A stretch of 64,000 nucleotides of DNA, taken from positions 2,294,001 to 2,358,000 of the forward strand of contig JBBELK010000068.1 in assembly GCA_037783545.1 (NCBI GenBank), given 5' to 3'. The stretch's first letter is position 1. Every line of letters starts with the position of its first letter. Source of the stretch: Henricia sp. BOLD:AAB3569 (lineage: Eukaryota; Echinodermata; Asteroidea; Spinulosida; Echinasteridae). The notes under the pieces were generated by a model, which was not told the DNA's origin, searched no databases, and was given only the letters and a program-made list of their open reading frames with translations. This document shows, piece by piece, positions 2,747 through 26,060 of this stretch. The translations under genes were made by a program, and so were the position numbers.

Positions 2747-2948
2747 GTGATCATCCGGGTCACGATGCACTTTGCCCCGATGAGAAATTGACGGCGGGTC
2801 CTCCCATAGCCGACAGCCTCGTAGACTCGTTCCAGTCGGTGGATGTCATGAATGGAGTCCAATGCGGCATGCAGTACAGGGTACCAGTTGACGCCACGGG
2901 GTACCAGGGAATGTTGGCCGCGCACCAACAGCACGGCAGTAATTTTGA
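2747..2948 (+). CDS. DUF4430 gene exon 1 (unit 1, domain A start)
   Basis: Acceptor TTTCTTTCTAG, donor GTGAGT; enters in phase 1 and leaves in phase 2. It encodes HDALCPDEK followed by the DSFQSVDV and CGMQYRVP strands and ends in QQHGSNF. Two Cys (LCP and QCGM) are conserved in the second unit and probably form a disulfide. The codon-1 phase means at least one exon precedes it. Confidence 0.8.
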
Positions 2949-5900
2949 GTGAGTGTTCGAAATGAAAGTTTGCCAGCTGCTGAAAGTAAACGCTTATTGT
3001 GACATAACGGACGTAGCTAGCTAAAGGAAATGACATACGGTTAAGATATTGCAACATAATGCATTGCAATATGTTGTTTTTCCTTGATCGACTGTACATT
3101 TATTAAATGTATTTAAAGGATTTCCAATGACATAAAACCTTAATGAACGAATTGACCGGGATAGTTAAGACAGATGTAGAAGCAACTGACATATTTGATT
3201 ACGCCCGAGGTATTATTTGTTTAATAAGAAAACAATAAATTTATATAATTGCGTGTGTTTTTACAAGGGCACCCTCATACGATTAAAATTAGGCACCTGA
3301 CTGTCAATGGCTTTACGCGCAGTACAGCCAGTGAAACCTGCCTACATCGCCCAAACTTTGGCACCTGTATTGAGTTCGTGAAACCCTGGCCACAAGATCT
3401 GTTCATAAAAAATACAATAAAAGCCAGTCATATACAGGGTGTATCAAAAAAAAGGAAACCCAACTTAAAATAGTCACTGTGGCAAAACTATACATTTTAC
3501 AGCAGAAACCATGGTATCATCTAAAAGTAGACGACAAATGCTTTCCGACGATACTTCATTCATGAATTTTCGGTTACGCATCGCTGAGCAGCAGTGTGTT
3601 GGAATTTAGGTCAATTATTCGACGTGGCTCACTTTCCAAGTCAATGAAATCAACGTGGCTCCTTTCATAATTGATTTGGGTGTAACTGGAAATGTCATTT
3701 GCTGATTATGCAACCACTTGTGGATAAGCCTAAGAGCTCTGACAGGCCTTCAGACAGTGTGTGTACCTGAAATCACAATGGTTCAGCTTACACCAGAACA
3801 GAGAATCTTTGTGATGAAGACTTGCCACGAAACCAGAAGTTTTCAGGCCACTCAGAATGCGTTCGCAGAAACGTTTCCTGAGACGTCGATGCCAACTGTG
3901 TCTTGAGAGAGGAGGGTGGCATGTGGAGGGCATTGGACAGTGAAACAAGTTAAATGTGTTTGGAAATTTCTTGAATAAAATTTCAGAGAAGAAAACACGA
4001 GTCAGTGTTAATTTTGTTGCATATCAGAGTGAGCCACCTCCAAAAAATGACCCAAATTCCAACACACTGCTGCTCAGCGACGCGTAACCGAAAATTCATG
4101 AATGAAGTATCGTCGGAAAGCATTTGTCGTCTACTTTTAGATGATACCATGGTTTCTGCTGTAAAATGTATAGTTTTGCCACAGTGACTATTTTAAGTTG
4201 GGTTTCCTTTTTTTTGATACACCCTGTATACTGTATTTAAAAGCAGTATACATCAGAAATGTTAACAGATTTACGCCTAACTTACACAATATAAACAGGA
4301 TGACCGTAGAAAACTTCGCCCCCAAACCACTTCGCCCGAGTGCCATTTCGCCCCAAATCACTTCGTCCAAACACTACATTGCCTAAATGCTACTTCGCCC
4401 CAAAACCACTTCGTGCACAGGCCGTGGTTTAGGGCGAACTGGTTTTGGGGCGAAATGACTGCAAACCCTTTTTGACTGTTTTCTCAAAAGTTAGACAAAG
4501 TACGGAGCTGGTTTTTGCTCAGGTTGGTTTTAATCATGCATATCTCCAATCACACAGCGGGATAAAACTATTTGTAACAGTTTACCGATCATGTATACTA
4601 TCTTTAATTGTCTTCTTAATATGCAGGTTTGAGTCCACGGTGCATCCAATGTGGGGACATTTCATCAGTGCCATCAACGGCATAGAACCAATGGGCGGCT
4701 TCTACTGGTTCATATTTGACAAATCCACGCTGCAACTCACTCCTGTAGGTAAGTGGTGACGTCAGTAGCTAATGGTGACGTCACAGGCCCGTGGTGACGT
4801 CACTGCCCTACATGGCAATTTAAAGTCAATTTGACTCCATCTTGTTTACTGAGCAATGCACAATTTGGAATCGGGACGCAAATATTTAAAAAAAGGAAAA
4901 GACACAACGGTTGCTATTCTATGGGATTAAATTTTGTTTTTGATAAAATGCATAGTTCCGAGATTGCCCAGTTAACCCCGCCCCTTAAATATTGTTGCTA
5001 TGTGCTCGCTCACAAGCCATCGCAAAAAAATGGCGATACTACGAACAAAGCAACGGGACTCGGCATGGAAAGCACAGATTCATTGGAGAAAACTCAAAGG
5101 TATTTATGTTTTGAGGTCGACAGTTACCGTAGCACACACTGAGCGAAGGGCTAGTAATGCAGGGATGACATATATTTCATAAAAATGCGCTTTCCTACCT
5201 TTGAACAGCGAATCGCCCGACATTGAAACCAAAATTCACCCGGTCACTGGCGCATACAACATACAAACTGTATGGGAAAACAATCGCGTGATTGTTTGTG
5301 ATGATTGCATCACTTTGACCTTTGTGGGCGCCGTCTGCTAGCTCTGTTGTGATTAGTCGCGGGTTCGGCTTGATTGACAGGTCGGAACGCTGTCTACGTC
5401 GGTATAGTGGCGACCCTTTGGAAACAAAATGGCGTCCTTGAACCTCTCATGTCGCAACTCTTCTACGAAGAGTTGCTACCCGTTGTGGGCTGCTTTCGAG
5501 CGTGGTACTAGGAATTTCCTGGTTTTCCTGGTGTGCACCTGAAGAATTTTGAACATAAATATTAATTAACAATTTTAAAAAATGCTTATTTACAAGAAAC
5601 AAATAGTTGGTTATAAGCTGCAACAAATCGTTTTCTTTTTTATATTTTAAGGTGTTGATTTCATCAAAATTGCTGAGTACAGCTCATACATCTGGCAATA
5701 TTTCAACAGCTCTGAGCATAATAGGAATTACACGGGTAAGATATATGTTTCGTTTTGGTGAAAATAACGGTAAGTGGAGTTGCACACCCTCGAAAGAGGG
5801 ACTCAAAAGTAATATCCTTTGTTCGAGGGACTCTGGTCGATTTTATACTCTTCCAAAAAAAGAAAGAAACACAATTGTCTTAAAAGGTAAATTCTTGATC

Positions 5901-8900
5901 AGAACAGAAGTGTGTTGAAAACAGTGAACTTGTGGATAACAAGGGACCGATCAACTAATCACTTCGCATTCAAAACTGTTCCGCCTTAGTGATTTCCTCC
6001 AGGTCCAAGAGGACCCATCTTCCTATCACAAGGTTGTTGCTCCTATACCGAGTTGTGTTGTGGACAACTCGGAGTAGGAGCAACAGCATTGGGACAGAAA
6101 GATGAAGAGGACCGTCTTGTAAAAGTCCTGTTTGAACAAAGTGATCCCCACAGCAGTAATGAAATGTGACATTTGCTGTTTACGGGAGGATCCAGAGGAA
6201 TTTGAAATTATCATCGAAAACCAGGGTCTCGGTGCTTTCTTTAATGATGGAATTTGCAAATGAAAAGATACGTGACATAATACAGTGGCTGATCAGCATC
6301 TGAAACTAGGGAGCTTTTGCATCGGCGGCCATGACAGGGGGCAGGTTTTCATATTTAAATGATGTGACAATAGATCCACAAAGTGCCTACTCGTGCTTGA
6401 CAAACAGTGACGATGGGACTGCCCCCTGTCATGGCCGCCGTGCAAAGGCTCTATAAGTCTCGGAAAACCTGTTGGGTTATCATCCTAGTTGAACTTGAAC
6501 CACGCATGCGTGGGAAAAGGTCTCCCAAGCAGCCCCAAGTGCAGGAGCTCAGCAGGGTGGCATTTCAGACAGAGTTAACTGTTGTGATTATAGTTAATAG
6601 TTATTTTGTGTTGGCGCCGGAGGACGTGTAAACATGTTCTGCCAATGTATAGTCACGGGGGCGGTTTACAAGATAAAACGTAAGCCCTGCCGCTGTCTTG
6701 CACAGTAGACGTGTAAACACTTCCGTTGTCCGCACACTGTGTTTTGAACTTGAACTGACGGCTGTGGGCGGGCCTGTCGTGTAGCAAATTTCGATCCGTG
6801 GCAGCCGTCTCTGAGTGTTGCAAAGTATGATCTTTTGTGGTGCTTGACCTGGGCCCTATTTCATAAAACTATTTAGGAACATTCCTAATTAATTGTTCCT
6901 AAGTCACTTAGGAACAATTATTTAGGAAGATCCCTAACTTAGGCATTATTAATTGACCTAAGTTAGGAACAATTCTAAGTTAGGAACAATGCATAAACTA
7001 TACAGACTACACATTGTATGACCGAGTTTGAACACTCTTTCTCTCCGTCTAGCGCGCCTATTTTCCCTGTCAAGTAGGCCTAGAGCCATAAACATAGCAA
7101 AATTGACATGTACACGGTTGACAAGCAAGCAAACTGAAGCAGTGTTTAATTTTCCCGCCAAATTGTCATGTGATACCTAACTTTAGGTCTGATTCATCCT
7201 GAGATCTCAGGGAATTTCCACTCTGCGAAGCGACGTAACAATACGCTAGGAGTGAGGGAGTGCGTTAAAGGGGCACTGTTGCAAGAGGATGGGTCTGATT
7301 ATGATCAGTCCTAAAGTTAGGAACTATTTCAACCAAGATAGGAACGATTTTGTACCTAAATTGCTTTATGAAATAGAACTTTAGGAATGTTCCTAAAGTT
7401 AGGAACAATTTGGATTTAGGAATGATAAATGTTCCTAAATCCTACTTAGGAATATTCCTAAAGTTTTATGCAATAGGGCCCAGCTGGTCTTAACTTTTGG
7501 CCAGTCATATTTGCCTTTTAAAAATATATTTATTTATTTATTTTTGGCGAAAATAATCCCGGCGTCAACTGGTTAAGATTCCACTTGTTCTGCCATTGTC
7601 ATTCGATTTTGTTATATTTCTGTGATCTGCGCGTTACGTTATACGGACGGTTCTGTCGTGTATATAAAATATTTGGAGGTCGATATGAAAGTGGCTTATA
7701 GGAAAGAACTGAGTAGTTGATCAAGGCTTTAAACTTTGTGTACAAAACATATGAGACGGGCTCAAAAAAATGTTTCCTTACAAAATCTTAAATGTTTTCT
7801 CACTCCTAAATCTGTTTTTTTCCCCATCAAATCTGCACTTACCGATGCATGTTGAGTCATTTTAAAAGAAAGAAATATGGTATCTTCTTCCGTGCATGGT
7901 TTAAATTTGGTCAAGAAACACACACAATCCAAACTATTTACAGGACCATGCATTGGACCATCTGTCATCCCGCCGCCGATGCCTCTGACGTACAAAGTGA
8001 CATACCTGAGCCTCGATTCCGCCAACACGGGATTGTTCACCGTCTGCAAGCAACTGGTGCTGATTCCGGGCGGTGGAACCACTGTCTACGGTCTACTGCA
8101 GTCGGCAAATGACCAAATCCCACTGTCTGTACAGTAAGGAGGAATATCAATTAGTTTGTTGAGATGTGGTGGATGCAATAGGATAGCTCGGAGTGGGTTC
8201 ACACTTGGCTTTTTGGCGCGTAATTTTGGCGCGTTTCGCTTTGAGAAAAAATGGTATGGGGGAATTTGAAGTGAAAATATGAAAAATCACAATCACAATA
8301 AAACGCTCTCCACCCAAGTTGATTATGTGATTTATACCCCGTCTTTTTACTGCAAATTCCTTCCACGTAGCTTTTTCTGAAAGCGACGCGCGTCGCATTT
8401 ACGCGAGCGAAAAGGCCCCACACTATCACGGAAAAATGGCTTTGCGCGCGCCTGTGCCATATATAGGTTTGTACAGAAACTGGTTTGCCGCTTGTGCGCG
8501 GCCCGGCCCGCGCGTCGCGTCGCGCAAAACGTTTTAGCTGGGTCAAAGTTCAAATCTGTTGAACTTTGACCGCGGTGCGTTGGCATTTCTATCGCACAGC
8601 CAATGAGGTATCAGAAAAACCCCAAGTTACCGGGGTTGAATTTTCCATTTTGGAAAGATCGACGATTGGGAGCTCATGCAATGCGGTTAGCGCAGCGTAT
8701 ACAGGCGTGGTTTTTCCGCGTGAAGGCGCGTTCACACTATCGCGGAAAAATCACACTGTTCCATTGGTTTGTACACAAACTGGTTTGCCGCTTGTGCGCG
8801 GCCTATCGCGATGCGCAAAACGTTTTCAGCTGGGTCAAAGTTCAAATTTGTTGAACTTTGACCGCGGTGCGCTGACCTTTCCAACGCGCAGCCAGTGAGG

Positions 8901-11900
8901 TATCAGAGAAGCCCCAAGTTACCAGAGTGGAATTTTCTATTTTGGAATAATCGGCGATTAGGAGCTCATGCAATGCGGTGAGCGCAGCGCGAAAGTGTGA
9001 ATTTTCCGCGATAGTGTGAACGCCCCTTTAATGTGACATACATTAGTACAGCGTATTTATAATGGAGTTCAATTGCGCGCGCAGGTGAAACCAATGTTGT
9101 ACCAGTAATGGCGGATGCTTAGATTAGTCCATGGTCTAAAAGGGTAATACATGTACAAATAATTCATGATGTTTCACCATCATTATCTACATGAATTTCG
9201 TGTCGCCATTTTACAAATCCATTTCTTTCTTTTTTTCTTTTGTTCCAAGGGCCACACTGGTGGCGAGTAACTACACGGTGACGTCATTAAATGGATTAGC
9301 CAACGACGAGCGGTACGTCTGGGCCGGGTACCCAGCCGGAAGTAACACGGAAATCCCATTCGGTAATGTATTGCTTCTAAAATAATAGACTCCAGATATA
9401 ATGACGTCACGATTTTTTTTATTGTGTGCATTTCAGGGGAGTCTTCAGAGAGAGGACAGAAATTAGGCAAACTGTGACTTCGTAGGCCTATTAAAACATA
9501 AATTTTATTTAACCGACGTGAAATAGCCGAAGTATAGGATACCAAAGAACAGTTAAATGAAGGGACAACACTTGTTTGACGTTATCGACGAAATTAATCA
9601 AAATATTACCGATGCATTGCCTGGTGAATAAACCTTCATAAGAATAAGAGAATCTTGTTTTCAACGTCGGCAACCCAATTAATTTTGATGATAAATTCTG
9701 CAACAATATGTGCTGCGCCATATTTGACATTTTGAAAGGGATGATTAATCGTCATCCATGTAACGATTGCATGGATGCCGTCGAGATTTATGCCTTGTTT
9801 CCCGACTCCCACACGCCATAAAGTATGTAAAAATCTGCACTTGAGCAAGGTTTCCCCGTAAACTAGTTCATTAAGACTTGTATCAACCTTCGCCGTTTGT
9901 TTCCTTCAAATTTAATCGGATTTTATTTTATTTTATTTTTTTCCCTGCGTAAAAAATATAGATTTATCGCAAACAACAGTAACTGACGGGGACCACATCG
10001 AATTCCGATACATTGAACGTCCTGGGATAACACTGCCACCAGGTATTACCTACATTCGCTTTTTTTAACCCTCGAACTAGGCACCTATTTCAAACTAACG
10101 GGAATGCGGGTGCGTGAACAATTTTGGGTCACAATGAAAATACACGGTTACATGCTGTTACTACACCGCTGCTTGAACACATTATGACAAGTAATCCACC
10201 CAGAGTCGTTAATAAATTCACCGGTTGAAGACGGATTTGCGCTCAGCCAGTTGAACTCGGAGGCCTGCTGGGCTGCGTTCCAAACACGCGAACATTGCAA
10301 ACGTTTGCATCGTTCGCCAACAACTGGCTTTCCATAGACGAGTGCACAAAAGCACTGAAACCAGTGGCGAACGTTGGCAACGTTTGCATAATGTGGAACG
10401 CAGCCCTGTTTTAAGCCCGCCGCACACCTTTGCGATTTACCGGATAATCGGATCATCGGACCACATACCGGAAAGGTGTGCGCTGAAACAATTCGGGCCG
10501 GTCTGACCGTACACCATAGACCGGAGCAAATCAAACTTGTTTGATTTTTCCGGATCCGATGGTCCGGTGTCCGATGTGCCGGTAAATCGCAAAGGTGTGC
10601 GGCGGGCTTTAATTGTGCTGCTGGGTATAGCATTTGTAGACAAACCAGATATTTTTCCCGCCAATTGCGAGGTAACAAAAAATGGTCATGATGAATAAAA
10701 CCCTTCTGAAAATAGTAGCAAGGGCCAACTTACAGCCCAGAAATTTAGAGGTTGGAGCCTATATAGTAATGGAGCCTATATAGTAATCCTATATTATTTC
10801 AACATGAAGACGAACAGAGCACGCTGTTCGAAACGTTGAGTTCACACTCACCGGTTCTTTTCAGAACACACATATACAAATGAGATTCACATGGTGCTAC
10901 CGTAAACCCATACACACGATGGCTAACATTGTTTGCGAATATTTCAATAATGGACAACATTAGATGCTTTATTATCCAGCAATGTTTGTGTCGACCTTTT
11001 CTTTATGAGCAAGTACGATTCACCACTAGAGTTGACCACTGGTCGAACGTCATTTTAACAAGACACATGCCCACTACCGTTCAAGTGCAAACGCCTTGGT
11101 TAGTCAACTTGTTCATTGTATAATATGCAGCATCAACTACCTGATGGGTACAAGTGACCAGCGCGACCGTGCCATGTGGGCTGGTTCCAAATGGTCGACA
11201 CGACTAACCATGGTTGACTACACTGCGTTCGGTTGGAAACAGTCGAAGTATAGTTAACTATGGTCGTGAATCGAACTCGCTCCAAGATGCGCAGCAAAAG
11301 CAGCCTTTCTGCGTCCAACTTTTGGCAGAGCCTGTATTGTAAATTTTTCTCTATTGGAGGATAGTTAGAAAGTTAGTGTTATCATTTTATTTATTCTAAT
11401 TTATATTTTGACTTTAAGCAAGCGACCTTTGCCCCGCGGCGGATATGACGTCAGGTCCACCAATAGCCGGTACCCTGGTTGATTCCTTCATGTCCGTGGA
11501 TGGTCATGAGATGGATATGTGCGGCATGCAGTACAGGGTGCCAGACAATGCCACGGTGTACCAGGGCATGTTGGCTGCCAGCCAACAACATGGGAGTAAC
11601 TTTGAGTAAGCACTAAAATATGAATGTGTACATGAGGGGCGCAGTGGCATGGTCTAGAGGACATTCGGGAGCTGGAGATAGGTCTATATGGTTCAAGGCC
11701 AATTTCATAAAGCTGTTTAGCAAATATTGTTGCAAACAAATTTTTGATTAAGCAAATTTTTCTGCTTAACTGCTTTATGAAATTGGGCCCAGGTCACTGC
11801 TATCGTGTTGTGTCCTTGGACAACTGACACTTTACTCCATACTGTCTCTCCCCACCCTGCAGGTGTACATGTAAATGGGTACACCGGCATACTGGTTGGG

Positions 11901-14900
11901 AAACCCAACTAATTGCTGGGGGTAAAACCTGCAATGAACTGACATCTTATCCGGGGAAGTTGCAATGCTCCTGGTCACTCCATGGCATAGAAACTAACAA
12001 CCTGTTGGGGAAACCCAACTAACTACTGGGGGATAAACATGCGATGAACTGACATCCCATCCGGGGGAGTAGCAATGCTCGCAGTCACTCCGCATATGCA
12101 GCACGATATGTGGCAGAGGGCATCCCCCATACCATTGTTCCCCCAATTGTGTTTCAAACATCAAAGGAATTCCTTTCAGGGTATATCACTCCGTGCCATG
12201 GAAACCAGGAATGTGTACCGGCCGTATGATTAAACTGAACAGTTGTATCTGTAACCCATGTTGGACGTCTTCTTCAACATGCGACAAGGAGTCTAACCTG
12301 AGCTAAACCCAGGCCTTAATATCGAGCTGACTAACTTTTGAAACTCTTGCACAGTATATCAATCCACGATTATGCCTCATACAGGTTTAAGTCTACGTTG
12401 TATTCTATGTTGGGTCACTTCATCACGTCGATCAATGACATCGGATCCTTGGACGGATTTTATTGGCTAATCTACGACAAGACCACCCTGAGGACCACCC
12501 CAAAAGGTGAGATAACTCCAAACTGATTTTAGATTTGTCAGTCTTTGCCCGTGTGGAGTAGTAGTTATATTGCGCTAATCAGGTGTAACTCGTACATAAT
12601 CGTTATATAAACGGAAAAAGAAAAAATAACCCGCTGAAAAATGGATATTAACTGCACAAACAATTGTAGTATGGGCGCCGCCATTTTGTCTGAAAACTAG
12701 CTTCATTTGCTGTTTTGTGGTATTTAATTTTTTTGCAAATCTTGTACACTAGGCTGTAAATATATTTTCCAGGTGTTGATGGCCTTATCATCGCTGACGG
12801 TAGCTCCTACATTTGGCACTACACCAATGAGAGCTCCCACGATATAATGTATGCAGGTAAGTCAAAATCCTTAAACCAACCGCACATTGAACAAAATCTT
12901 GAAGAAATCGTGGGCGTGCTTTTTACACTGCAAGTATATTCAACCTCGGAAATAAGTACATGTAGACGGTGCATCTCCATGTACTTTACGCACGTCGCAG
13001 TGTCGCTATATACCTTTGGACTATATGGCACTGCGCAACTCACACGAGCAACACGACAGAATAGACTCGTAAGAACTTACAAGTTGACGCATAATTTTGG
13101 CTAGTAATCCATTTTATAAAGCGAATAAATCCCGTGCTAAGCAAATTTGTTTTCTTAGCAGCGCCGTGAAATTAGCCCTGCAGGACTATTTTATTCACAT
13201 AACATAAATACATGCAAGCAAGGTTTTGTTTCGGAAACTGTTGCATCTAGCTGACATTTTTTGCATGCATGCTTACCAACATTAAACCTCCTTAGATGTA
13301 CAACACCATTGTTTCAGAAATTCCTGAAAAAAAGCTCCACATCTACAAATGATACCATTGTGCATTTCAACAGGGCCATGTGAAGGATCGGGCGTAATTC
13401 CACCCACCGCGCCGCTGACTTACAAAATCGCCTACGTGACTGTATCTGGTACCAACATACAGCGGGTAACCAGCGACGATTTCACACGTGTCTGCAAGCA
13501 TTTGGTATTGATACCATCTACTCCAGTCACAGTCTACCAGCTACTGGAGATAGCCAATAAGCAGATACCACTCTCTGTAACGTACGTGCCACTTTCTTTT
13601 CATTGGCTAAAAAACGTGTTGATAGTCCGATAAAATAGTCATTAGAAACGTATTCTTGCAGTCACTGGTGCACAAATTCACGTTTTTACCTTGTAAATTC
13701 TGTCATGTTTTAAACTCAGGACTTAAAGGCCCAGTGGATCATTTGCAATGACCCCAAAAGGTAATCGACGAGTTTACAGGGGAAAAGTTCTGAAAGTAAA
13801 GATTGAATTAATAGCAACTATCCATTGAAAGGTTTTCGCTCAAAATTATATAATTTTACCAGAAAATAATCCGTAAAGATGAAATTATTTAGATCGTTTG
13901 CAAACGATTTACTTATTTTTGGTTCGCATCTACGCGGTCAAAAATGCATGGGCGCTGTGTACTCCGTGTAGCTGTGTTCCAATGCGATGCATTTTTATGG
14001 ATCGCGCGCACACGCAGTTTGTGCGCCACAGAGTGCATGACGCAAGCCACATAGTACCCGATCAACTGAGAACGAATGTTTGAAACACCCCGCCAAGACC
14101 AGGAAAATGCATATGGATTTTCATGGTTTTTTTAAACGTGGTACATTTGACAAAGCTGAAATTTATTCGGATGAGTTTGTTGATGTCTTTCTTTTGATTT
14201 ATAATGGTTTTATTCGCAGAATCGCTCAAAAACAGATCATCTACAGGGCCTTTAAACTTAGTTATGATTCGCAACAAAGTAAACTTTACCTTGCCACGAA
14301 AGTCACATTTGTGGATTGTTGTTTTTGGTCTGTTCTAAGATTCCCTCAAAGTGACAAACAAGTGTTCAAAGCACTTAGTATTCACGTTCGCGTTTTACAC
14401 ATGCATCTCAACCTCCCAGTGGCGGATCCAGCCTCATAAAAATGCAGGAATACAATGGATTTCAGGGTGTCCGACCCCCTGAAGTCCATTGTATTCCTGT
14501 ATTTTAATAAGGCTGGTTCCGCCTCTGACCTCCATATTTCTGTTCACAGGGCCGTGTTAAATCAGACGGAGTTTACCGTGACGTCATTCAATGGCGTGGC
14601 GAACACAGACGCTTACCGCTGGACTGGTTTATTAGCGGGAAGCAATCAGCGAATTCCATATGGTAATTTGGTATTGCTTTGAAGTTCTCCAGGCCTTTTC
14701 CCCAACAAATTGATTGTAAACGTTTGTCGTTTGATTGGAATGAACAAGTTAAAAGTTCCTTTGTAAAAACATACAGCTTTTCAAAATATCTCATGTACCT
14801 CAAGATTTTCTGTTGTGCCTTTCAGAAAATACCCAGCAAAATGCAGCTCTGAGGCAGTCAATTAGTAGAAGTGACTTGATTTTACCAATTTAATACCTTT

Positions 14901-17900
14901 CTTTTACTTTTTGTTAGATATTTTCTGAGTCGTGTTTCATAGTAGTCAGATTCAGGGATTGTGGAAGAGTGGGATTACCGTAATTTTCGGAATATAAGCC
15001 GCGGCTTATACGTTCATTTTGCCGATTAAAACGTTAGTGCGGCTTATAAAACGAGCAGTTTATGCGCGAGAAAAAAAATGACATGCACATGTACAAAATT
15101 ATATAATGTACCGGTATAAAGAAATGTCTCAAAGTACTTTTTCATACTCTCGGGTGTCCTCCAATCAAATGGCAAAGATTTTATATGCCATTATTTAAAA
15201 AAAAACATTACGTGAAACCTGCATTAGAAAAAACCCTCGAATTCTTCTCACCAGTTTTGCGATTTTTTCCTAAAGGCTCTTAACCGCAGAGTAATTGGTC
15301 ACATAAACAACCACCCTATTATCCATCCCCTGAGGATACAGTGACCAAGAGCTGTGGTAATTGCCCTGTCAATGAGGCGCTTCTGGTAGCTGGGACTACT
15401 TGCAGCATGGGCATGCACAAAATTGTTGTGTGTGTGTGGTGGTGGGAGTCAGGGTGGCCTTGCGTGTCAGCGTATTGTGCATGCACTTGTTCCTTGTACA
15501 TACAAGGTATATGGTGGTATGGCTTACAAGCATTAGGAAAGTCAGTGTCGTGCATAGTGAAAGTTGGAAGTATCACTGTCACTATCATCAGTCCATTTTT
15601 TCCTCTAGGATCCTTTTGAAGTTTAATATTTAGTGTTAAAATCAACCACGAACACAATTTGCAACTCTTGTTTTCGCACGTTACTCGCGTGTGAAACAGA
15701 AGTACAGTATTTTATATAATCAACCATGTAATAAATAATTCAACCACCGTTACATCAAAGAGTAAAAAATAATACATTATATGTGCCTTTTCGATATCAA
15801 ATCACCATACATACTGCCCCATGACCATTCTTCAGTCCAACGATTTCCTTCTTATTGTTGTGTTTTTATTCAAAGTACAAAATTGTGACGGATACGTTTA
15901 GACAAAGAAAACGGTAACCTCCAAATTTAATATTTTGGCAACGTTTATTATGAAAGAGGCGATTGAGTGCCCTTGCGTTCCTGAGGTGCAAGACTCGCGC
16001 AATGAGTGTCCCCAGCTGGGCCCAGGCAGGATTGACAATTTTATCCGGGACTATGAAAATGCTAATAGTACATCGACGTGAGCCATGCCGAAACCGACAG
16101 TGTGAATTCACTTACAGCAGATCGGTAGTGGCTTTTCCACTGACGATTATCGCGCTGCAGTTGGGGTGCTGAGGTGGGTCCAAAACAGTCACATTCAAGC
16201 CTTTAGAGCGGACACTGTGGACAATTTTACTCTTTTAATTATGTTCGATTTAATATATCTTTTATAGAGATAGGAAAAATTAACTCTTATTATTCATATT
16301 TTCAAAGCGATTTTATTACTTAGGATAATATTGTGTCCACAATGCATATGATCCCTTAAATGTAGTCCCTGAATGACCTGGTTCATGCACCCCACTTCAA
16401 GGCTTGGGTGGTAGTTCCCATAGCAACCTCCCCTAATTCTACTGACCACACGCTCTCCTTGGGTAACATAATTGCTCCTGCAAGATCGCTGCTGAGTGCA
16501 TTTGGGCATAGTTTTTGCTCTGTTCCCATCATTCTGTTGCTAGTGTCAGAGATAACCACATGTATTTTTTACACATGTGTTTTTTGTTTGAAACACCCCC
16601 AGCGTACAAAACCTTTAAACTTACAACTTGCAACTTCCAACTTTTCATCCAACTTCAACCTTAATTATTTGTGAAAGGAAGTGGTGTAATTGTACAATAG
16701 GATTTAAATCATTATTCCTGTGTCTGTAGCTAAAGTGGGATACAGCTTTTTATGATTGTGCAAATAGAGCGTGTGCCACTTCTGCTTACGGAGCCCGTAA
16801 GTACGGAGCCAATTAACAAAACTTTTGTTTTTGTTCCCTCAAAATAATATTTCGGTACAATTATAGAATACAGGGCCCACGAGGACAATATCTGGAGATC
16901 CGGCTCTGTGGATCTCCAGTCACAGAGTTCACGGGATAATTGACCGCAGTGTTTACCCTTCTTCCACAGCACAACAAGCCGTTCGCACCTACCCAGACCT
17001 ATAGTAACCAGTAACAGCTCCCCGCTGTGAATTGCAAAGGATTAGCGACGGTTTATCATGATTGTTTATTACCACATGGCCGCCTCGATCGTATACTATT
17101 CCGGCTTTCGGAGATTGTTTTAATAAAGGAAAATAAAGCCCAAGTGCCATTCGGCTGCCGATAAACGCAGGGAAATAGAGCCCGAGTAGCAAAATTAAGT
17201 CCGAGTGCTTTTCGGTTGCCGACGGTCGCCTCGTATAGTATTCCGGCTTTCGGAGATCGTTTTAATAAAGGGAAATAAAGCCCGACTGCATGCCATTCGG
17301 CTAACACGATCTATCGGGCCCGAGTGACGTGTTTGACTGGAGATCCGCAGATCTGGAGATCCGCAGATCTGGAGATCCACTCCAAAAAATTGACTCGGCT
17401 TTGGTGAGGGGTGGGGACAGGGAAATAAAGCCCGAGTAGTATTCGGTTGGCGATGGCCGTCTCGTATACTGATCTGGCTTTCGGAGATTGTTTTAATAAA
17501 GGAAAATAAAGCCTGAGTAACATTCGGTTGCCGATGGCCGCTAGTATACTCTTCGAGATTGTTTTAATAAAGGGAAATATAGCCGGAGTGCCATTCGGTT
17601 GCGCTTGCAGAAGGCCGCCTCGGATACCTACTGTTTGTGCCTGCAATGATAGTATCACGCTACTTTGAAATAATTTAATTGGTAAAAACAAAAGATCTTG
17701 GCTGGTTGCATACAAAATGATGCTTGTGCAGGGTGGCCAAAATAATCTTGGGCATTCTCTGTCGTTCAATGAATATGCGCCCTTTAAAATCGATCTGTCA
17801 GGACACCTACATTAATATATCAAGGGTGAAATTACGTTCACCCTGCACATTGTCAAAAGAAGATAGCCTTGCTCATTAATTGCTGTCCATTTCTCCGTTA

Positions 17901-19968
17901 CATTCGAAAGGTTCGTTGCGACCGCGATGACTCCACGATTTTCAAAAAGGGTATAGTTCTGTTGGGCCCTGTATTTTAAAATTACTCCTGAAAACAAACC
18001 TTTTTTGAATTAAGTCCCTTACGAGCTTCGTACGTAAGCTAGGAGACTCAATTTAAAAAAAAGTTTTCTGTTTTCATTCCCTCAAAATAATACATACATT
18101 AATTCGTTCCCTCTAAATAGTATTTCGTTCCCTCGCAATGTTAACCAGTAAAAACACTGAAAAAATTGTAAAAGCATGTGACACTTTTGTACCCCTAATT
18201 TTGGGAATTGCCCACCATGCGTTCACCCCATGAACCTTTCTGGGGATAGTGCGTAATATTCCAAGCATGTCCCTGAAACCATATAGCACTGACCTCTGCC
18301 CTGCAAACTCTCTGCACTGGCTACGTGCGGTCAGCAGTTCTGGTCACATTCCTCTTATTCCCCAAGTTCCCCACCCTACTCTGCACTGCATGATTGTTTC
18401 AGACGGTCCCTAAGATCTAAAACTAAGAGTTGTGGAATTTATCATAACCTATTTTGCACAGTCCGTTTTGTCGTTGGAATATCTCTGTTCGTGCATGTGT
18501 GATTCTATAATAAAAAAAATACTTAAGCCTAGTTCCCACATTTACGGTTAGGGCGTACGGTTTGGGATCCGTACAGAGTCTTGAGATCAAAAACAGGTTT
18601 GTATATAAATACTCATTGTAATACATTTCTGATTATTGTAGTTGTGAAATATCTTACCATGTCAAAACATTGTCAAGTAATCATGACTTCTTTGAATTTC
18701 ATCATTCACTTTGAAATATTAATACGCATGGTCTGTGGCTGCCAGCAGGCACTGGGACATCTGTTGGGGTCAAATAACAGAACCTGTACGGCGATTCTGG
18801 GTGATAAGGCCGGACTGTCTTATTCAATATCTCCAGATATACTCGGCAGATTTTTATGATTCAAAGTTGCCCGCATAACAACGTTTGACACTTTTCCCAA
18901 TATTGTACAGTATAAACAGCAACCATGTCGGATTTTGCAGATATTTCCTATCAGTAAACTGTCAGGCAGAGACCCATTAACCACATGTTCACGGCTATTA
19001 AACTTGTGGTTAGCCTCAGGGAGATCTTGCGGTTAGATAGGAGAGATTGTGTTACAAAGCACTCTCCCCAAAACTGGTAAGTACCAACCCGAGTAGCGCA
19101 CGGGCCTACTCGGGTTGGATTCTAATGGGCGATACACGTAATGAAAAAGTTGAATTTATGCTTTTCCGGTTAGTCAATCGTAGTTATTATTTCCATTCCT
19201 TAGAAAATGAAGTGCTTCTATTTATCTCGGCTTCGCTTCGCAACATTCGGTCTTTCAACTCATGAAAATATTCGTACCATTCAAGTCATAGGCCTAAAGA
19301 TTCATTATTTGTATGCTAGACCTACGTGTATTCAAGCCATGGTAAAAGGGGAGACGGAATATCAGGCCAGGTAGAGCGACAGACGTTATACATAAACATG
19401 ATACAACAAAAGCTTGAGTCACGTATTGAATACAGTGCATGCTCAACAACCATGACAAGCTTTAATTGTATTCATGTTTATGTATAACGTCTGTCGCTCT
19501 ACCTGACCTGATATTCCGTCTCCCTGGTAAAAGCTCAATTTAAATCACACAATAGAAGAACTTTGAAACGCGTGATGGCAGCAAACAAACCGTTCCTTTT
19601 CCATTCTTTACGTCACGTTTGAACTAAAGTGCGCATGCTCAATATGACCTAGGCTATGGAAAATGACCTGTTTGTTTGCTGCCACCAAGCGTCTAAAATC
19701 TCTTCCATTGAAATTCTTAATTTCTTTGTCATCGCATAATCATTTTGATTTATGAAGATCTCAGAAAGACCTCGACTGCTCATTCCACGGTTCTTTAATT
19801 TCTCCCCCAGATCTGGTCATGACGGACGTGTCGGACGGAGATCACTTTGAGTTCAGACTGGAGAAGTCCAGCATCAAGACCGGACCAGGGGGTGGGGCGC
19901 CCTCTACCGGCCTTTCCATTTCCTTGAGCCTTTTCGGACTTTTTGTGACTGGATTGTTGCAGTTTTAA
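2747..19968 (+). CDS. Tandem DUF4430 (transcobalamin C-terminal-like) GPI-anchored protein, 5' incomplete
   Basis: Twelve exons: 2747-2948, 4627-4748, 5652-5735, 7944-8133, 9250-9362, 9962-10042, 11419-11605, 12385-12506, 12773-12856, 13374-13581, 14550-14662, 19811-19968. All have GT/AG borders and compatible phases; they give 554 visible residues ending at TAA 19966-19968. Exons 1-6 and 7-12 are two copies of one unit. Each unit has domain A (LCP...CGMQYRVP...FESTVHPMWGHF-ISAING...YW) and domain B (GPC...VC-LVLIP...YTVTSLNG...DGDHIEFRY). Both resemble the C-terminal domain of intrinsic factor and transcobalamin (DUF4430), whose hallmark is F-F-T-WG-Y-TSI-G-YW and a final DG-I-F. The last exon adds a Gly/Ser-rich hinge and a hydrophobic uncharged C-terminus, as in GPI-anchored proteins. 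No signal-peptide exon or alpha-barrel domain was found upstream, so the start lies outside the window or was missed. Whether it binds cobalamin is unknown. Exon 6 could instead read into a stop (see findings), making two genes. Confidence 0.8.
3431..4230. mobile_element. IS630/Tc1-like miniature element with about 200-bp inverted repeats and HTH remnant
   Basis: Long terminal inverted repeats start CAGGGTGTATCAAAA at both ends, flanked by TA/TATA, and extend inward about 200 bp (3431-3630 and 4010-4230). The centre (3778-3906, + strand) encodes VQLTPEQRIFVMKTCHETRS followed by FQATQNAFAETFP. This resembles the N-terminal helix-turn-helix of transposon proteins (T-E-R-V-Y--T-S---Q-F---FP). 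No catalytic domain remains. It lies in intron 1 of the DUF4430 gene. Confidence 0.8.
4268..4610. mobile_element. TTCGCCCC hairpin miniature element, copy 1
   Basis: Core made of inverted repeats TTCGCCCCAAAACCACTTCG / GTTTTGGGGCGAA; arm with AGTACGGAGCTGGTTTTTGC and ACAGTTTACCGATCATGT. It ends about 15 bp upstream of exon 2 of the DUF4430 gene. Confidence 0.75.
4627..4748 (+). CDS. DUF4430 gene exon 2 (unit 1, domain A core)
   Basis: 122 nt, acceptor ATATGCAG, donor GTAAGT. It encodes FESTVHPMWGHFISAING then GGFYWFIFD, the most diagnostic segment of the family: transcobalamin-type domains have F-F-T-WG-TSI-G-YW here. Exon 8 has exactly the same length and phases. Confidence 0.87.
4930..5410 (+). 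repeat. Dispersed repeat family G, copy 2
   Basis: Second copy of the repeat at 640-1085, in intron 2 of the DUF4430 gene. It is less decayed at the TTCGAGTGTGTGCTAC-type middle but has no open frame of note. Confidence 0.7.
5652..5735 (+). CDS. DUF4430 gene exon 3 (unit 1, domain A end)
   Basis: 84 nt, acceptor ATATTTTAAG, donor GTAAGA. It encodes GVDFIKIAEYSSYIWQYF, the terminal strand pair of the domain, followed by two N-glycosylation sequons (NSS and NYT). Exon 9 has the same length and phases. Confidence 0.82.
6030..6085. repeat. Imperfect hairpin
   Basis: GTTGCTCCTATACCGAGTTG pairs with CAACTCGGAGTAGGAGCAAC around a short loop. Intronic in the DUF4430 gene; followed at 6185-6315 by a short repeat also seen at 47800-47905. 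Confidence 0.7.
6308..6462. mobile_element. Palindromic element with GGCGGCCATGACAGGGGGCA ends, copy 1
   Basis: Inverted repeats around a core with GACAATAGATCCACAAAGTG. A second copy is at 56525-56690 and a fragment is at 1-70. Confidence 0.7.
6851..7485. mobile_element. Palindromic AGGAAC-rich element
   Basis: Begins GGGCCCTATTTCATAAAACT and ends with its reverse complement (AGTTTTATGCAATAGGGCCC). Both arms are built of TTAGGAACAATT-like repeats. An unrelated 95-bp repeat is nested at 7196-7290. Confidence 0.8.
7196..7290 (-). repeat. Internally deleted copy of repeat family J
   Basis: The two ends of the longer repeat at 21305-21872 and 48640-49202 are joined directly: CAACAGTGCCCCTTTAACGC next to GTATTGTTACGTCGCTTCGC (read on the minus strand). 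The middle of about 470 bp is missing. Confidence 0.7.
7690..7880 (+). repeat. Dispersed repeat family H, copy 1
   Basis: GAGTAGTTGATCAAGGCTTT, TGTGTACAAAACATATGAGAC and TCAAATCTGCACTTACCGATG are shared with 33835-34030, 24310-24370 and (reverse) 42195-42255. It precedes exon 4 of the DUF4430 gene. Confidence 0.65.
7944..8133 (+). CDS. DUF4430 gene exon 4 (unit 1, domain B start)
   Basis: Acceptor TATTTACAG, donor GTAAGG. It encodes GPCIGPSVIPP, then LTYKVTYLSL and VCKQLVLIPGG-TTVYGLLQSAN. The IP-G-TVY-LL segment matches the 'VP-G-S-L-VL' strand and helix of DUF4430 domains. The Cys of GPC and VCK recur in exon 10. Confidence 0.82.
8195..9030. mobile_element. Element with two tandem units of about 295 bp
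   Basis: TTTGCCGCTTGTGCGCGGCC at 8485 and 8785, and TCAAAGTTCAAATTTGTTGA-type segments at about 8543 and 8835, repeat in the same order. Both arms start from CACTATCGCGGAAAAA and the end carries the inverse (TTTTCCGCGATAGTGTG). Intron 4 of the DUF4430 gene. Confidence 0.75.
9250..9362 (+). CDS. DUF4430 gene exon 5 (unit 1, domain B core)
   Basis: 113 nt, acceptor TGTTCCAAG, donor GTAATG. It encodes SNYTVTSLNGLANDERYVW and a GY-AGS-EIPFG loop. SLNG followed by an aromatic W corresponds to the SI-G...YW core of domain A. Same length and phases as exon 11. Confidence 0.82.
9962..10042 (+). CDS. DUF4430 gene exon 6 (unit 1, domain B end)
   Basis: 81 nt, acceptor AAAATATAG, donor GTATTA (weak). 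It encodes DLSQTTVTDGDHIEFRYIE; the DGD-I-F-Y motif is the terminal strand of the family. It ends in phase 1, matching exon 7. If the weak donor is skipped the frame closes after eight more codons at TAA 10066-10068. Confidence 0.75.
10409..10612. mobile_element. Palindromic element with TTTGCGATTTACCGG ends, copy 2
   Basis: AAGCCCGCCGCACACCTTTG and its reverse complement at the right end; interior with CCGGATCCGATGGTCCGG. Intron 6 of the DUF4430 gene. Confidence 0.8.
11419..11605 (+). CDS. DUF4430 gene exon 7 (unit 2, domain A start)
   Basis: Acceptor TGACTTTAAG, donor GTAAGC. It encodes SDLCPAADMTSGPPIAGTLV and CGMQYRVPDNATVYQGMLA. It is clearly homologous to exon 1 with the same two Cys, and has a sequon at NAT. 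Confidence 0.82.
11698..11789. mobile_element. Palindromic CAATTTCATAAAGC element
   Basis: GGCCAATTTCATAAAGCTG at the left and GCTTTATGAAATTGGGCCC at the right. Motif fragments recur at 13125-13180 and 31595-31645. Confidence 0.7.
11790..12100 (+). repeat. SINE-like segment with tandem 105-bp duplication
   Basis: A GTGTCCTTGGACAACTGACAC / AAATGGGTACA segment, typical of animal SINE bodies, is followed by two tandem copies (about 11897-11990 and 12004-12095) of GGGAAACCCAACTAA...CAATGAACTGACATC...TGCTC--GTCACTCC. Confidence 0.55.
12091..12185. repeat. Half copy of GCACGATATGTGGCAG element
   Basis: Left arm only of the palindromic family at 22291-22471. Confidence 0.6.
12385..12506 (+). CDS. 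DUF4430 gene exon 8 (unit 2, domain A core)
   Basis: 122 nt, acceptor CATACAG, donor GTGAGA. It encodes FKSTLYSMLGHFITSIND and DGFYWLIYDKT. The W-G of exon 2 is L-G here and the G after SIN is D, so this copy has drifted at two positions that are usually conserved. Confidence 0.85.
12773..12856 (+). CDS. DUF4430 gene exon 9 (unit 2, domain A end)
   Basis: 84 nt, acceptor TATTTTCCAG, donor GTAAGT. It encodes GVDGLIIADGSSYIWHYTNE; ADGS-YIW is the terminal strand motif, closer to the family consensus than its copy in exon 3. Confidence 0.82.
13374..13581 (+). CDS. DUF4430 gene exon 10 (unit 2, domain B start)
   Basis: 208 nt, acceptor ATTTCAACAG, donor GTACGT. It encodes GPCEGSGVIPPTAPLTYKIA, a strand six residues longer than in exon 4, then VCKHLVLIPSTPVTVYQLLE. 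It is homologous to exon 4 along its whole length. Confidence 0.82.
14428..14516. repeat. 89-bp fold-back
   Basis: CCAGCCTCATAAAAATGCAG and AATACAATGGATTTCAGGG are matched by their reverse complements to GGCTGG. It ends about 33 bp upstream of exon 11 of the DUF4430 gene. Confidence 0.85.
14550..14662 (+). CDS. DUF4430 gene exon 11 (unit 2, domain B core)
   Basis: 113 nt, acceptor TTCACAG, donor GTAATT. It encodes NQTEFTVTSFNGVANTDAYR and a G-LAGSNQRIPYG loop, parallel to exon 5. An intron of about 5.1 kb follows. Confidence 0.82.
15000..16980. other. Intronic stretch without recognised gene
   Basis: Contains a CGGCTTATA-rich segment (14985-15065), a short TG-rich run (15424-15445) and otherwise anonymous sequence. 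Short frames on both strands lack homology I can recognise. Confidence 0.5.
16990..17620. repeat. Degenerate tandem repeat with CTTTCGGAGATTG units
   Basis: At least four spaced copies of GGCTTTCGGAGATTGTTTTA, followed by AATAAAGG-AAATA-AGCC-GAGT and ATTCGGTTGCCGA (about 17099, 17244, 17476, 17552). A smaller GGAGATCCGCAGATCT repeat lies at 17338-17385. Located in the 5.1-kb last intron of the DUF4430 gene. Confidence 0.75.
19084..19118. repeat. Hairpin, 13-bp stem
   Basis: CCAACCCGAGTAG and its exact reverse complement, separated by 9 nt. Confidence 0.85.
19350..19525. mobile_element. Fold-back with about 50-bp near-perfect arms
   Basis: GGAGACGGAATATCAGG and GTAGAGCGACAGACGTTATA are mirrored at 19472-19523. 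The spacer is about 70 bp. Intron 11 of the DUF4430 gene. Confidence 0.85.
19570..19695. mobile_element. Palindromic GGCAGCAAACAAA element
   Basis: ATGGCAGCAAACAAACCGTT and inverse GTTTGTTTGCTGCCACCAAG. Related arms occur at 27995-28090, 28495-28560 and 38335-38360. Confidence 0.75.
19811..19968 (+). CDS. DUF4430 gene exon 12 (domain B end and GPI signal)
   Basis: Acceptor CTCCCCCAG. It encodes DLVMTDVSDGDHFEFRLE (equivalent to exon 6), then a GPGGGAPSTG hinge and a C-terminal run LSISLSLFGLFVTGLLQF before TAA. A small-residue cluster followed by about 18 uncharged hydrophobic residues at the very C-terminus, with no charged residues after it, fits a GPI-attachment signal rather than a transmembrane anchor with a cytoplasmic tail. 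Confidence 0.8.
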
Positions 19969-23251: not shown

Positions 23252-23508
23252 TCATACCCTGGGTCGTATCATCATAACGGTGGTCTTGAGTGAGTAACCA
23301 TAGCCACGGAAAGGGAACCAGACAACACCCTTGGCGTTCTGCCCAGTACCCACAATGCCCCGCAGATACTGGCCGTTAAGGTTGGCGTTGTGGCAGGTGG
23401 AGTACCACCAGGCTCCCGTGTATTCCACGGCGCAGTTGCCGGCCCACCGGTCGTTATCTCGGTCAGAGGTCGAGAACTGGTTGCCATCATGGGCTGACAT
23501 ACCGTCAC
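23252..23508 (-). CDS. FReD gene 1 exon 4 (calcium site, stop)
   Basis: Acceptor TTGTCCTCAG. It encodes FSTSDRDNDRWAGNCA, GAWWYSTCHNANLNGQYL and a final YSLKTTVMMIRPRV before TGA at 23254-23252. The DxDND calcium loop and both C-terminal Cys are present. Confidence 0.9.
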
Positions 23509-26060
23509 CTGAGGACAAAAATGTTGGTACCTTGTTGAGTTGTTCTTTTAGATTGTACGCAAACATAGTGACCCGTAGTCCATCCTTACCAACCGTCCTA
23601 TAGTGGGCAACGTGTCCCAGTTGAGTTTTGCATGCAAAACTTTGCCGGGAAGAAATTGAAATCGTAGTACATGTGACTACTCAACCTAGCAGGACCATAC
23701 AATAGCCCCATGCAGTGGACATTATAGGGCCGCCGGCATAGTCGTAGTGGACCATAGGGGCCCCTAGTGCCGGCCTAGTCTCGTACCCCGACCTGCTGGG
23801 GATGCTCCCCCGCAGGTCGGAGTACGAGACTAAGTGCCGCCTTACGCAATCCTATTGGAGCCGAGCCGGCACGTTTTACTGCTGTTGCTTCTCGGGGACA
23901 TTGTTATTGCAAGATTAGAAATTCAACCCGGTTTGGACTTTGAAGCCAAGACCGTGGTCGACTGTAGCAGAGGGACACCGGGATGCAACAACGGGAATGT
24001 GTAGCAGGGCACCTTACCTCCGGGTCCACCAGTGAAACCAGCCACACGCAGCGTGTAGTTATTCGCCTCGCTCCCCACGTAGAAGTTGCGGTAGTGTGAC
24101 TCGACCATGGTGAACTGCCAATCTTCCAGCAGGACCAGGAGCTCATAGCGATTCTGTGCCGATATAGCGTGTATGATCTCGTTCCCCAGCCACACCTCGC
24201 CGGAGTTGTAGCCGAAACCGTCCCGGTAGGAATCCCAGTCGCGGTTGAAGTTGAGACGACCGTCAACACGCCGTTGGATTACCTGAAGACGATGGGAGGT
24301 AAGAAAAGAATGGAGTAGTTGATCATGGCTTTAGATCTTGTGTACAAAACATATGAGACAGGCTGAAGAAAAATTTAAATTGATTGGTAAACTGTTGAAA
24401 GGGGCATTGTTTCCACTCGTGATAAGAAGCCCATGTTGATAAGACGCACAGACTCAGTGAAGAAGACATAAGTTGTTTACGCGGCCACGTCATCCCGCCC
24501 CAACCAATTGCGTCAGAGACATGTTTGTGGTTAAGTTCACAAAACAGGCCCCATGTGATTGTGATACGTAATGCATGCGGTGCCGTAGTCTTACCGTCCA
24601 GCCGCCGCCTTGTTGGGACTGGTCGCAGTAGACACGGACTGGCCGACACATGTCAGAAAAGGCTGGGAAAATAGTATATACACCATCACGCCCACCTCCA
24701 AGCTCCCGGATGTCGTGGCAATTAGTTGGCATGTGAACAGGAGCTGTAGAAATTGACAATATTTAAGAAATGTAACTCTATAAATAGAACGCGCGTAAGT
24801 TGATGTTAAAAATCAGCGATACGAACCTTATAGGTGTGCGTTCGCTTATAGTTTTCCCAAGTCGCCCCGAGATAATGCCAAATAATGAGCCCTTCCTGAA
24901 GAAGAAAAGGTCAAAGTTCTGAATGTGATCATGACGAAGCGGATCCTTCCTCGCCTTCCACCAATGTGGCCCACTCTATCAATCCTGCATGGGCATGTAT
25001 GTAGGTTGGGTTTGCATGACCGCGTGGGATTTCCCTAGGAGATTTTTCTGGGGGAGTTCCTTCCCCCCTTTTAAAACTTCATCTCCTCCTTTGTCATTTA
25101 AAGTTTATAACTTTAAAATCCTAAATAACTTTATGCACAGTTTTTGCTGCATATGAAGGATTACTGGTCCGGAAAGGCATTACTATATATACTGTTCATT
25201 TTGATGCCCCATGACTAAAAGGTGGTAATTTTCAACAACATTTCTTAACAGAAACTCACAGAAAGAGGGCACTGTTTAGGGGCATGTCACTTTAGGAACA
25301 CACAGCAGAAAATCAAAGAAAAAACATAAGACTTCAAACTGGAATTGTGGAAAATTGCTGCAGTTTCCAGCCTCGGTTTTGACATGCCTTACAATCGGTA
25401 ACACGTTAAACAAACCCAAAACATCATGGGTCACAAAAGTTTCAGCAAGTTGGAGAAAATAGTGGAAACCTTTGTGCACAGTTGAATGAGATTTTCCTGT
25501 GTTTGCCTAATGTGACATCACAACCTTGCTCATGAATATGTAAATTTTCATTAGCATAAGAATCAAAAACCTTGATTCTAACCCATAAAATAACTTGAAA
25601 GTAGGGTTTTTATAATTGTAATTGAATGGAGTAGTTCCATAGCATAGATTTTATTAATAAAAATACCATTTCAGGGGCCCATTAAGCTACATGGGCTTAG
25701 TTGCCGAAGATGCCATAAACTGAACTACGACAGCTATAATCTGTGCTGTTACTCGTCGCTGCGGGCTGATATGATTTTATAAATCGACGACCATGCAAAC
25801 TCAACAACAAATTTAACAAAACCACTTTAAAAGGAAAATAGATTCCCTTTTCAAATTCATTCGATGTGATTTACGGAGCCAATTTCTAAAATCAATGTCG
25901 TACTATTTTTTCGATCAAAAACATTTGGCTACCTACCTCCACCGGCCGCGGCGTTGTAGATCCCTCCACAGCACGTCTTATCGGGGACGTTCGGGTCAAT
26001 CAGACCCGCCGTCTGAAACGCGCATAATAGTGCTACCAAAAGTCCCACAAATTGCTCCAT
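23252..26060 (-). CDS. Fibrinogen-related (ficolin-like) secreted protein, FReD gene 1
   Basis: Four exons on the minus strand: 26060-25937, 24743-24595, 24282-24018, 23508-23252 (124+149+265+257 nt; 264 residues). Residues 1-19 form a signal peptide (VGLLVALLCAFQTAG); residues 20-41 hold a short stalk with TCCGG. The rest is a complete fibrinogen C-terminal domain: NCHDI, VYCDQS-QGGGWT (to 91), IQRRVDG, YRDGFGYNSGEVWLGNE, and WWY-TC followed by NLNGQYL. The calcium loop SDRDNDRWAGNCA (residues 194-206) is intact. Animal FReD proteins are mostly secreted lectins binding acetylated sugars or pathogen surfaces, so pattern recognition is the likely role; ligand unknown. There is no collagen or coiled-coil region, unlike ficolins. 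Codons sum exactly and intron phases are 1-0-1. Confidence 0.88.
23776..23832. ncRNA. Strong 21-bp hairpin in FReD gene 1 intron 3
   Basis: Arms TAGTCTCGTACCCCGACCTGC and its reverse complement (one mismatch) enclose a 15-nt loop that itself can pair GGGG with CCCC. It is transcribed as part of the FReD gene 1 intron. It could be a small-RNA precursor or simply a tiny fold-back repeat; the sequence does not decide. Confidence 0.35.
24018..24282 (-). CDS. FReD gene 1 exon 3
   Basis: 265 nt, acceptor GTCTTCAG, donor GTAAGG. It encodes VIQRRVDGRLNFNRDWDSYR, GEVWLGNEIIHAIS and YVGSEANNYTLRVAGFTGG. The WLGN motif is retained, unlike in genes 2 and 3. Confidence 0.88.
24595..24743 (-). CDS. FReD gene 1 exon 2
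   Basis: 149 nt, acceptor TTTCTACAG, donor GTAAGA. It encodes TNCHDIRELGGGRDGVYTIF, DMCRPVRVYCDQ and GGGWT: the first subdomain of a fibrinogen domain. Same length as exon 2 of FReD genes 2 and 3. Confidence 0.88.
24925..25110 (+). mobile_element. Decayed SINE fragment
   Basis: CCTTCCTCGCCTTCCACCAATG and CCGCGTGGGATTTCCC-type tail match the tRNA-derived SINE at 61558-61830 and the tails near 49600 and 49890. Intron 1 of FReD gene 1. Confidence 0.55.
25937..26060 (-). CDS. FReD gene 1 exon 1 (signal peptide)
   Basis: ATG at 26060-26058; donor GTAGGT after a phase-1 G. It encodes MEQFVGLLVALLCAFQTAG then LIDPNVPDKTCCGGIYNA. The start is chosen because it opens directly into a signal peptide and sits where the other FReD genes have theirs. 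Confidence 0.8.

Follow-up and report, generated by a model that had tools for sequence, protein, structure and literature searches.

What does a sea star do with the vitamin-clasping domain of a cobalamin carrier when this domain is repeated four times and stands without the barrel that normally accompanies it? The question is raised by positions 2747-19968 of the window, the 64,000-nucleotide stretch analysed here (contig C68, 2294001-2358000, of an assembly of 740.7 Mb in 2104 contigs), which an earlier note had read as a GPI-anchored protein built of four tandem DUF4430 domains, perhaps with the function of binding or scavenging a small ligand as a receptor at the surface. We take up in turn the structure of the gene, the identity and origin of its domains, the two ends of the protein and its probable role.

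Gene structure

The region holds a single predicted gene of 12 exons on the forward strand, joined through introns which have GT-AG ends in all 11 cases. The spliced frame is free of stops over 553 codons plus the split first codon and ends in TAA at 19966-19968, in full agreement with the exon positions and the 554-residue model proposed earlier. The domains follow each other in the order A1-B1-A2-B2, with three exons per domain and a short hydrophobic tail at the end. In A1, exon a1 (2747-2948, entered in phase 1 and left in phase 2) encodes a cysteine-bearing linker and the N-terminal part of the domain, b1 (4627-4748, phase 2 in and 1 out) the core including the contact hairpin discussed below, and c1 (5652-5735, phase 1 in and 1 out), which was picked up by tblastn with c2 as query (E 2.2e-7), the final strands. 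B1 is divided between d1 (7944-8133, phase 1 in and 2 out; cysteine-bearing linker and N-terminal part), e1 (9250-9362, phase 2 in and 1 out; core) and f1 (9962-10042, phase 1 in and 1 out; final strands). The second unit repeats this arrangement, with the cysteine-bearing linker and N-terminal part of A2 in a2 (11419-11605, phase 1 in and 2 out), its core and contact hairpin in b2 (12385-12506, phase 2 in and 1 out) and its final strands in c2 (12773-12856, phase 1 in and 1 out), followed by d2 (13374-13581, phase 1 in and 2 out) with the cysteine-bearing linker and N-terminal part of B2 and e2 (14550-14662, phase 2 in and 1 out) with the B2 core. After a last intron of 5.1 kb (14663-19810), f2 (19811-19968) supplies the final B2 strands, a small-residue spacer, the hydrophobic tail and the stop codon. 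The intron phases 1-2, 2-1 and 1-1 are thus repeated in all four domains, so that each domain, and each two-domain unit, is a phase-1 module.

The reading of the gene as two six-exon units of two domains each is upheld by the exon boundaries, by the phases and by the identity between the units, which is 62% for A1/A2 and 52% for B1/B2. Between unit 1 and unit 2 we obtained dN 0.29 and dS 2.5 for the A domains and dN 0.45 and dS 1.8 for the B domains. Since dS is near saturation in both cases and dN is well below dS, the duplication of the units is old and has since been held under constraint. That the exons were joined by chance, or that the gene has decayed, can hardly be true in view of the 11 GT-AG introns, the agreement of phases, the open frame, the low dN relative to dS and a signal exon (see below) which joins in phase.

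Apart from the exons, tblastn of the domains returned just two chance-level matches in the window (E 0.22 and 0.86) and seven in the DNA upstream of it (E 0.065-0.75). A search of the whole assembly for a second copy, in which the best candidates were scored and distant paralogues may escape, matched the model to its own 12 exons alone at E<=1. The beta domain of the carrier described below, used as a genome query, likewise found its own exons only and missed the tandem gene, which shows that distant paralogues can be overlooked; at the sensitivity of these searches the tandem gene is single-copy. The intron between a1 and b1 contains, at about 3434-4236, an inverted repeat in which one peptide can be read on both the forward strand (ORF 3374-3565) and the reverse strand (ORF 4096-4236), an arrangement reminiscent of DNA transposon ends.

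Identity of the domains

The assignment to DUF4430 stood for the protein as a whole and failed for the domains taken singly. The complete protein scored 24.7 bits with PF14478 against a cut-off of 23.8, the best stretch lying in A2, while A2 scanned on its own fell short of the cut-off with 17.6 bits and each of the other three domains, scanned likewise, gave no match at E<=1. The same profile found no match in the genome of the animal itself, as expected because exons split the domain.

We therefore describe two further comparisons, the first with bacterial relatives. A bacterial DUF4430 sequence served as bait and matched 12 plasmid records, of which six were taken; all six of their domains pass Pfam, with 56.0-71.1 bits. 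A scan of bacterial genomes then supplied the best 80 of 394 relatives, and an HMM was built from the 128 domains that we located in 90 ORFs at 86 loci. It gave 17.2 bits for B1, 12.5 for A2, 8.9 for A1 and 7.2 for B2, scores that were reached by two of 1000 shuffles for A1 and by none of 1000 for each of the other three. On this HMM alone A1 and B2 are insecure, because the controls come close to them: reversed A1 scored 8.2 and one A1 shuffle 14.9, and the top score among 326 ORFs of the window was 6.8 (reversed A2 reached 7.6). The second comparison used as query the beta domain of the carrier encoded in the same genome and gave 34.7 bits for A2, 16.3 for A1, 11.6 for B2 and 9.1 for B1, with none of 1000 shuffles reaching the real score for any domain, narrowly so for B1, where the best shuffle had 8.3. 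Together with the introns shared with this carrier, the two sets of scores bear out the domain type and the four tandem copies proposed earlier, and support the view that all four are transcobalamin-type beta domains.

A direct profile comparison of A with B was not significant (hhalign score 14.3, where the top five among 100 column shuffles scored 16.5-19.4), and the kinship of the two types rests on comparisons with third sequences, on a common cysteine pair and on intron phases. Searches of the PDB with the tandem domains as queries returned no transcobalamin and nothing relevant; a profile of the six bacterial domains reached haptocorrin 4kki (E 0.0022) and 3u7z (E 0.0036). The NCBIfam search yielded nothing of use, the plasmids searched with domain A2 gave no match, and 27 pattern matches in viral contigs included no relatives.

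Two of the plasmid records can be described here for their gene order. On a Limosilactobacillus reuteri plasmid (1-1776) a small DUF4430 protein directly follows the adenosylcobalamin-dependent nrdJ, which fits a cobalamin link, and on a Latilactobacillus curvatus plasmid (1-3249) an LPXTG protein, a DUF4430 protein, an ECF transporter T component and an ABC ATPase stand in a row.

The carrier of the same genome and shared introns

The transcobalamin barrel (PF01122) has two matches in the genome, in two exons at one place on contig C147, one scoring 41.4 bits, which exceeds the cut-off, and the other 21.5. This locus, which we read over 20 kb, encodes a barrel-bearing cobalamin carrier at about 1085700-1090241, with the barrel exons first and then a beta domain in three exons; this beta domain alone passes DUF4430 with 25.7 bits, in a query with one residue wrong. 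Since its barrel exon has NNHYQ, closely similar to the TNYYQ/NNXXQ motif given in PMC4350170, the carrier looks like a working B12 binder. At or near the tandem gene the whole-genome search revealed no PF01122, and the signal exon joins a1 directly and in phase, so the description of the tandem protein as barrel-less has held up.

The introns of the carrier beta domain interrupt AG|G TTT GAA TCC in phase 2 and G|GT CCA GAT in phase 1. In the A domains the first intron lies in GA|G TTT GAG TCC (A1) and GA|G TTT AAG TCT (A2), again in phase 2, and the second in G|GT GTT GAT, again in phase 1, so that both are in the same columns and the same phases as in the carrier. For the B domains this agreement of columns extends to the second intron; the first has the same phase and is two columns off, beside a gap in the alignment. 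We take the shared introns, and the scores of the carrier query above those of the shuffles, as good grounds for deriving the tandem gene from the beta domain of an animal transcobalamin. We considered a separate bacterial origin and set it aside, as the introns in common with the animal carrier argue against it. The three-exon, phase-1 beta domain is also seen here acting as a duplicable module.

Signal exon and C-terminal tail

The first exon had been noted as missing from the window, and it does appear to lie outside. We added the 10 kb before the window and looked for an ATG with a hydrophobic stretch and a strong phase-1 donor. Only one donor site in 12.7 kb was found, MFNMSIVITISSFLVFTVCFTLTA followed by G|GTAAGT in phase 1, at C68:2293571-2293643. 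This candidate signal-peptide exon, called by hydropathy and splice rules, lies 430 to 358 bases upstream of window position 1 and splices directly to a1 in phase, the split codon being Gly, which brings the full predicted protein to 24 + 554 = 578 residues. As a control we scanned seven stretches likewise; three of them contained donor sites, four in total, each of which resembles, in our view, the signal exon of a neighbouring gene.

At the other end, f2 finishes with GPGGGAPSTG-LSISLSLFGLFVTGLLQF-stop, that is, small residues and then 18 mostly hydrophobic ones up to the final codon (tail and stop codon at 19912-19968), with the stop codon directly next and no charged residues after the hydrophobic stretch. 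The hydrophobic tail described before is thus confirmed by sequence and hydropathy. A signal peptide, a small-residue spacer and a terminal hydrophobic stretch are the usual look of GPI-signal proteins. The presence of a signal peptide and a terminal hydrophobic tail, with no residues beyond it, supports an outside-facing protein, which we infer from these sequence features to be GPI-anchored at the cell surface. It is unlikely, although the 5.1-kb last intron has room for another exon, that the tail is no GPI signal or is replaced through an alternative last exon, leaving the protein secreted or single-pass; the small-residue spacer, the 18 mostly hydrophobic residues running to the stop and the lack of charge after them speak against it.

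Genomic surroundings

Fibrinogen_C exons are found at three scanned places of the window, 23255-23680 (-), 41187-41489 (-) and 50885-51364 (+), the last of them ending in a Gly/Glu-rich repeat tail, and similar ORFs exist besides; judged by these matches, the region 23255-51364 is a cluster of fibrinogen-related genes on both strands. A tRNA-like sequence inside this cluster (50626-50698, +; Rfam 40.6 bits, none by ARAGORN) is perhaps a tRNA-derived repeat. An ORF of 390 residues at 29069-30238 (-) matches RVT_1 with 82.9 bits and then ALKBH8_N with 23.7 bits, and belongs to a LINE-type retroelement.

Contact hairpin, cysteines and the likely role

In haptocorrin, Arg357, Trp359 and Tyr362 of the beta domain are the bulky contacts to the corrinoid, and in teleosts Phe replaces Tyr at position 362 (both PMC4350170). 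We placed positions 357-362 on the printed haptocorrin stretch ourselves, by spacing. In the resulting alignment haptocorrin reads R-S-W-G-P-Y, the carrier of the same genome T-D-F-G-N-F, A1 P-M-W-G-H-F, A2 S-M-L-G-H-F, B1 V-A-S-N-Y-T and B2 N-Q-T-E-F-T. The pattern of a bulky residue, glycine, any residue and an aromatic is kept in A1 (W and F) and in A2 (L and F), A1 having the combination of W and F described for teleosts and A2 a milder form of it, and the YW pair is also kept in both. B1 and B2 have neither the hairpin glycine nor a bulky residue at 359, and their aromatic is one place off, which may be an effect of the alignment.

All four tandem domains have a pair of cysteines, the first preceding the domain and the second located in an early strand (residues 9/39, 138/170, 268/298 and 397/435 of 553), which is absent from the beta domain of the carrier. 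We infer one disulfide per domain, which would staple the linker to the domain and which was probably gained before A and B split. The protein also contains six N-glycosylation sequons.

What could such a protein do? The small-ligand receptor or scavenger suggested at first from the sequence is plausible, although for half of the molecule the missing contact pattern in B1 and B2 argues against such a role. The role that we find likeliest is that the A domains capture corrinoids at the cell surface, because A1 and A2 keep the hairpin pattern and tight cobalamin binding is reported for beta-only proteins of fish. We give about an even chance to an arrangement in which the array is anchored at the surface, its A domains bind corrinoids directly and the B domains are spacers or lids. 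In this arrangement the protein would sit on the outer leaflet of the membrane via its GPI anchor, with the linker of each domain stapled by the cysteine pair. The two A domains with the contact-hairpin pattern would bind cobalamin or related corrinoids directly, while the B domains would serve as spacers or as lids standing in for the missing barrel. Corrinoids caught by the array in this way could then be taken up, or be exchanged with the barrel-bearing carrier, which is secreted and comes from the same genome.

What is known of separated beta domains is instructive here. The isolated beta domain of human transcobalamin was crystallised with cyanocobalamin, the two domains made separately have a lower affinity for cobalamin, and the assembly of separately made alpha and beta domains depends on cobalamin, as PMC5599065 reports. 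For the barrel-less zebrafish Tcnba/Tcnbb a review reports high cobalamin affinity (PMC10778862). A direct, multivalent, tethered corrinoid catcher, with pairs of beta domains in the place of the barrel and no need for a soluble carrier or for a receptor of the CD320 or cubilin type, is a tentative proposal that is on balance somewhat improbable. The cobalamin-dependent assembly of alpha and beta domains (PMC5599065), and the fact that the genome encodes one barrel-bearing carrier, could also mean that the tethered beta domains act as a receptor which recognises the secreted carrier, or its cobalamin-loaded alpha domain, with no hold on the free vitamin. We consider such docking quite improbable, as neither CD320 nor cubilin, the known receptors of carriers, has any relation to the beta domain (PMC4947154; PMC10778862).

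The B domains lend most of the weight to a different possibility, that the fold has been repurposed and cobalamin binding lost, the protein now being a disulfide-stapled extracellular rod for some other ligand (a glycan, a peptide or a cell-surface protein), for example in adhesion or microbe recognition. Beyond the missing contact pattern of the B domains, it would be in line with the two cysteines per domain that the carrier's beta domain lacks, with the six sequons, with the other ligands reported or predicted for further members of the superfamily (PMC1796856) and with the Fibrinogen_C neighbours, though neighbourhood says little in animals. The W/L-G-x-F pattern and YW pair kept in A1 and A2, and the reports of beta-only fish relatives as tight cobalamin binders (PMC10778862), are against it, and we regard such a repurposing as possible but somewhat doubtful.

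Under the preferred reading, corrinoid capture by the A domains, the array would share its ancestry with the carrier and be built from the vitamin-clasping part of it. The difference between the two domain types at the contact hairpin makes ligand binding by A, with B in support, directly testable. How B12 enters the cells of non-mammalian animals is not settled; zebrafish is described as having no CD320 homologue, with another receptor or pathway being possible (PMC10778862), and the tethered array is a candidate entry point.

Comparison with known systems

The surface proteins of B12 uptake, CD320 and cubilin, resemble the tandem protein only if the role proposed here is right. Cubilin is built of domains other than the beta domain and binds loaded carriers, not the vitamin itself. 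CD320 is built of LDLR-A domains (PMC4947154) and likewise binds loaded carriers and not the vitamin.

The soluble carriers (transcobalamin, intrinsic factor, haptocorrin and the carrier of this genome) have a beta domain homologous to the tandem domains. The carrier of this genome and the tandem gene also have intron phases 2 and 1 in common, and for the A domains the intron positions coincide too. In contrast to the carriers, which have a PF01122 alpha barrel before one beta domain, the tandem gene has four beta domains, no barrel that we could find and a hydrophobic end.

Bacterial surface proteins with DUF4430/SLBB domains are described as secreted, several of them cell-wall-anchored, and as proposed scavengers of B12 or its precursors (PMC1796856). 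Some of the bacterial ORFs collected here, 19 of 90, have two to four DUF4430 domains. However, the bacterial proteins are attached in another way, to the cell wall, and come from single-exon genes, whereas the tandem gene has introns in common with the animal carrier.

The fish proteins Tcnba, Tcnbb and TCNL have, like the tandem protein, a transcobalamin beta domain without the alpha barrel (PMC10778862, PMC7918649, PMC4350170, PMC1796856). Solo fish domains were described already in 2007, together with the cell-wall-anchored bacterial relatives that were proposed as B12 scavengers (PMC1796856), and in an icefish the barrel-less TCNL is reported as the most abundant gill transcript (PMC7918649). 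Notothenioid TCNL and, according to PMC1796856, the solo zebrafish domain share a signal peptide with the tandem protein. As these sources present them, the fish proteins are short, contain only the beta domain and are thought to be secreted, while the tandem protein has four domains of two types, cysteine pairs and a GPI-type tail; the fish-type architecture of a single beta domain with no membrane anchor is thus different from the four domains and hydrophobic end seen here. Our searches of the open-licence literature listed no protein of A-B-A-B architecture with four copies, two types and a membrane end, and unannotated models of it may exist in databases. The parts themselves are known, and fish have barrel-less beta proteins of the transcobalamin type; what appears new is a single protein that unites four copies of two domain types with a membrane end.
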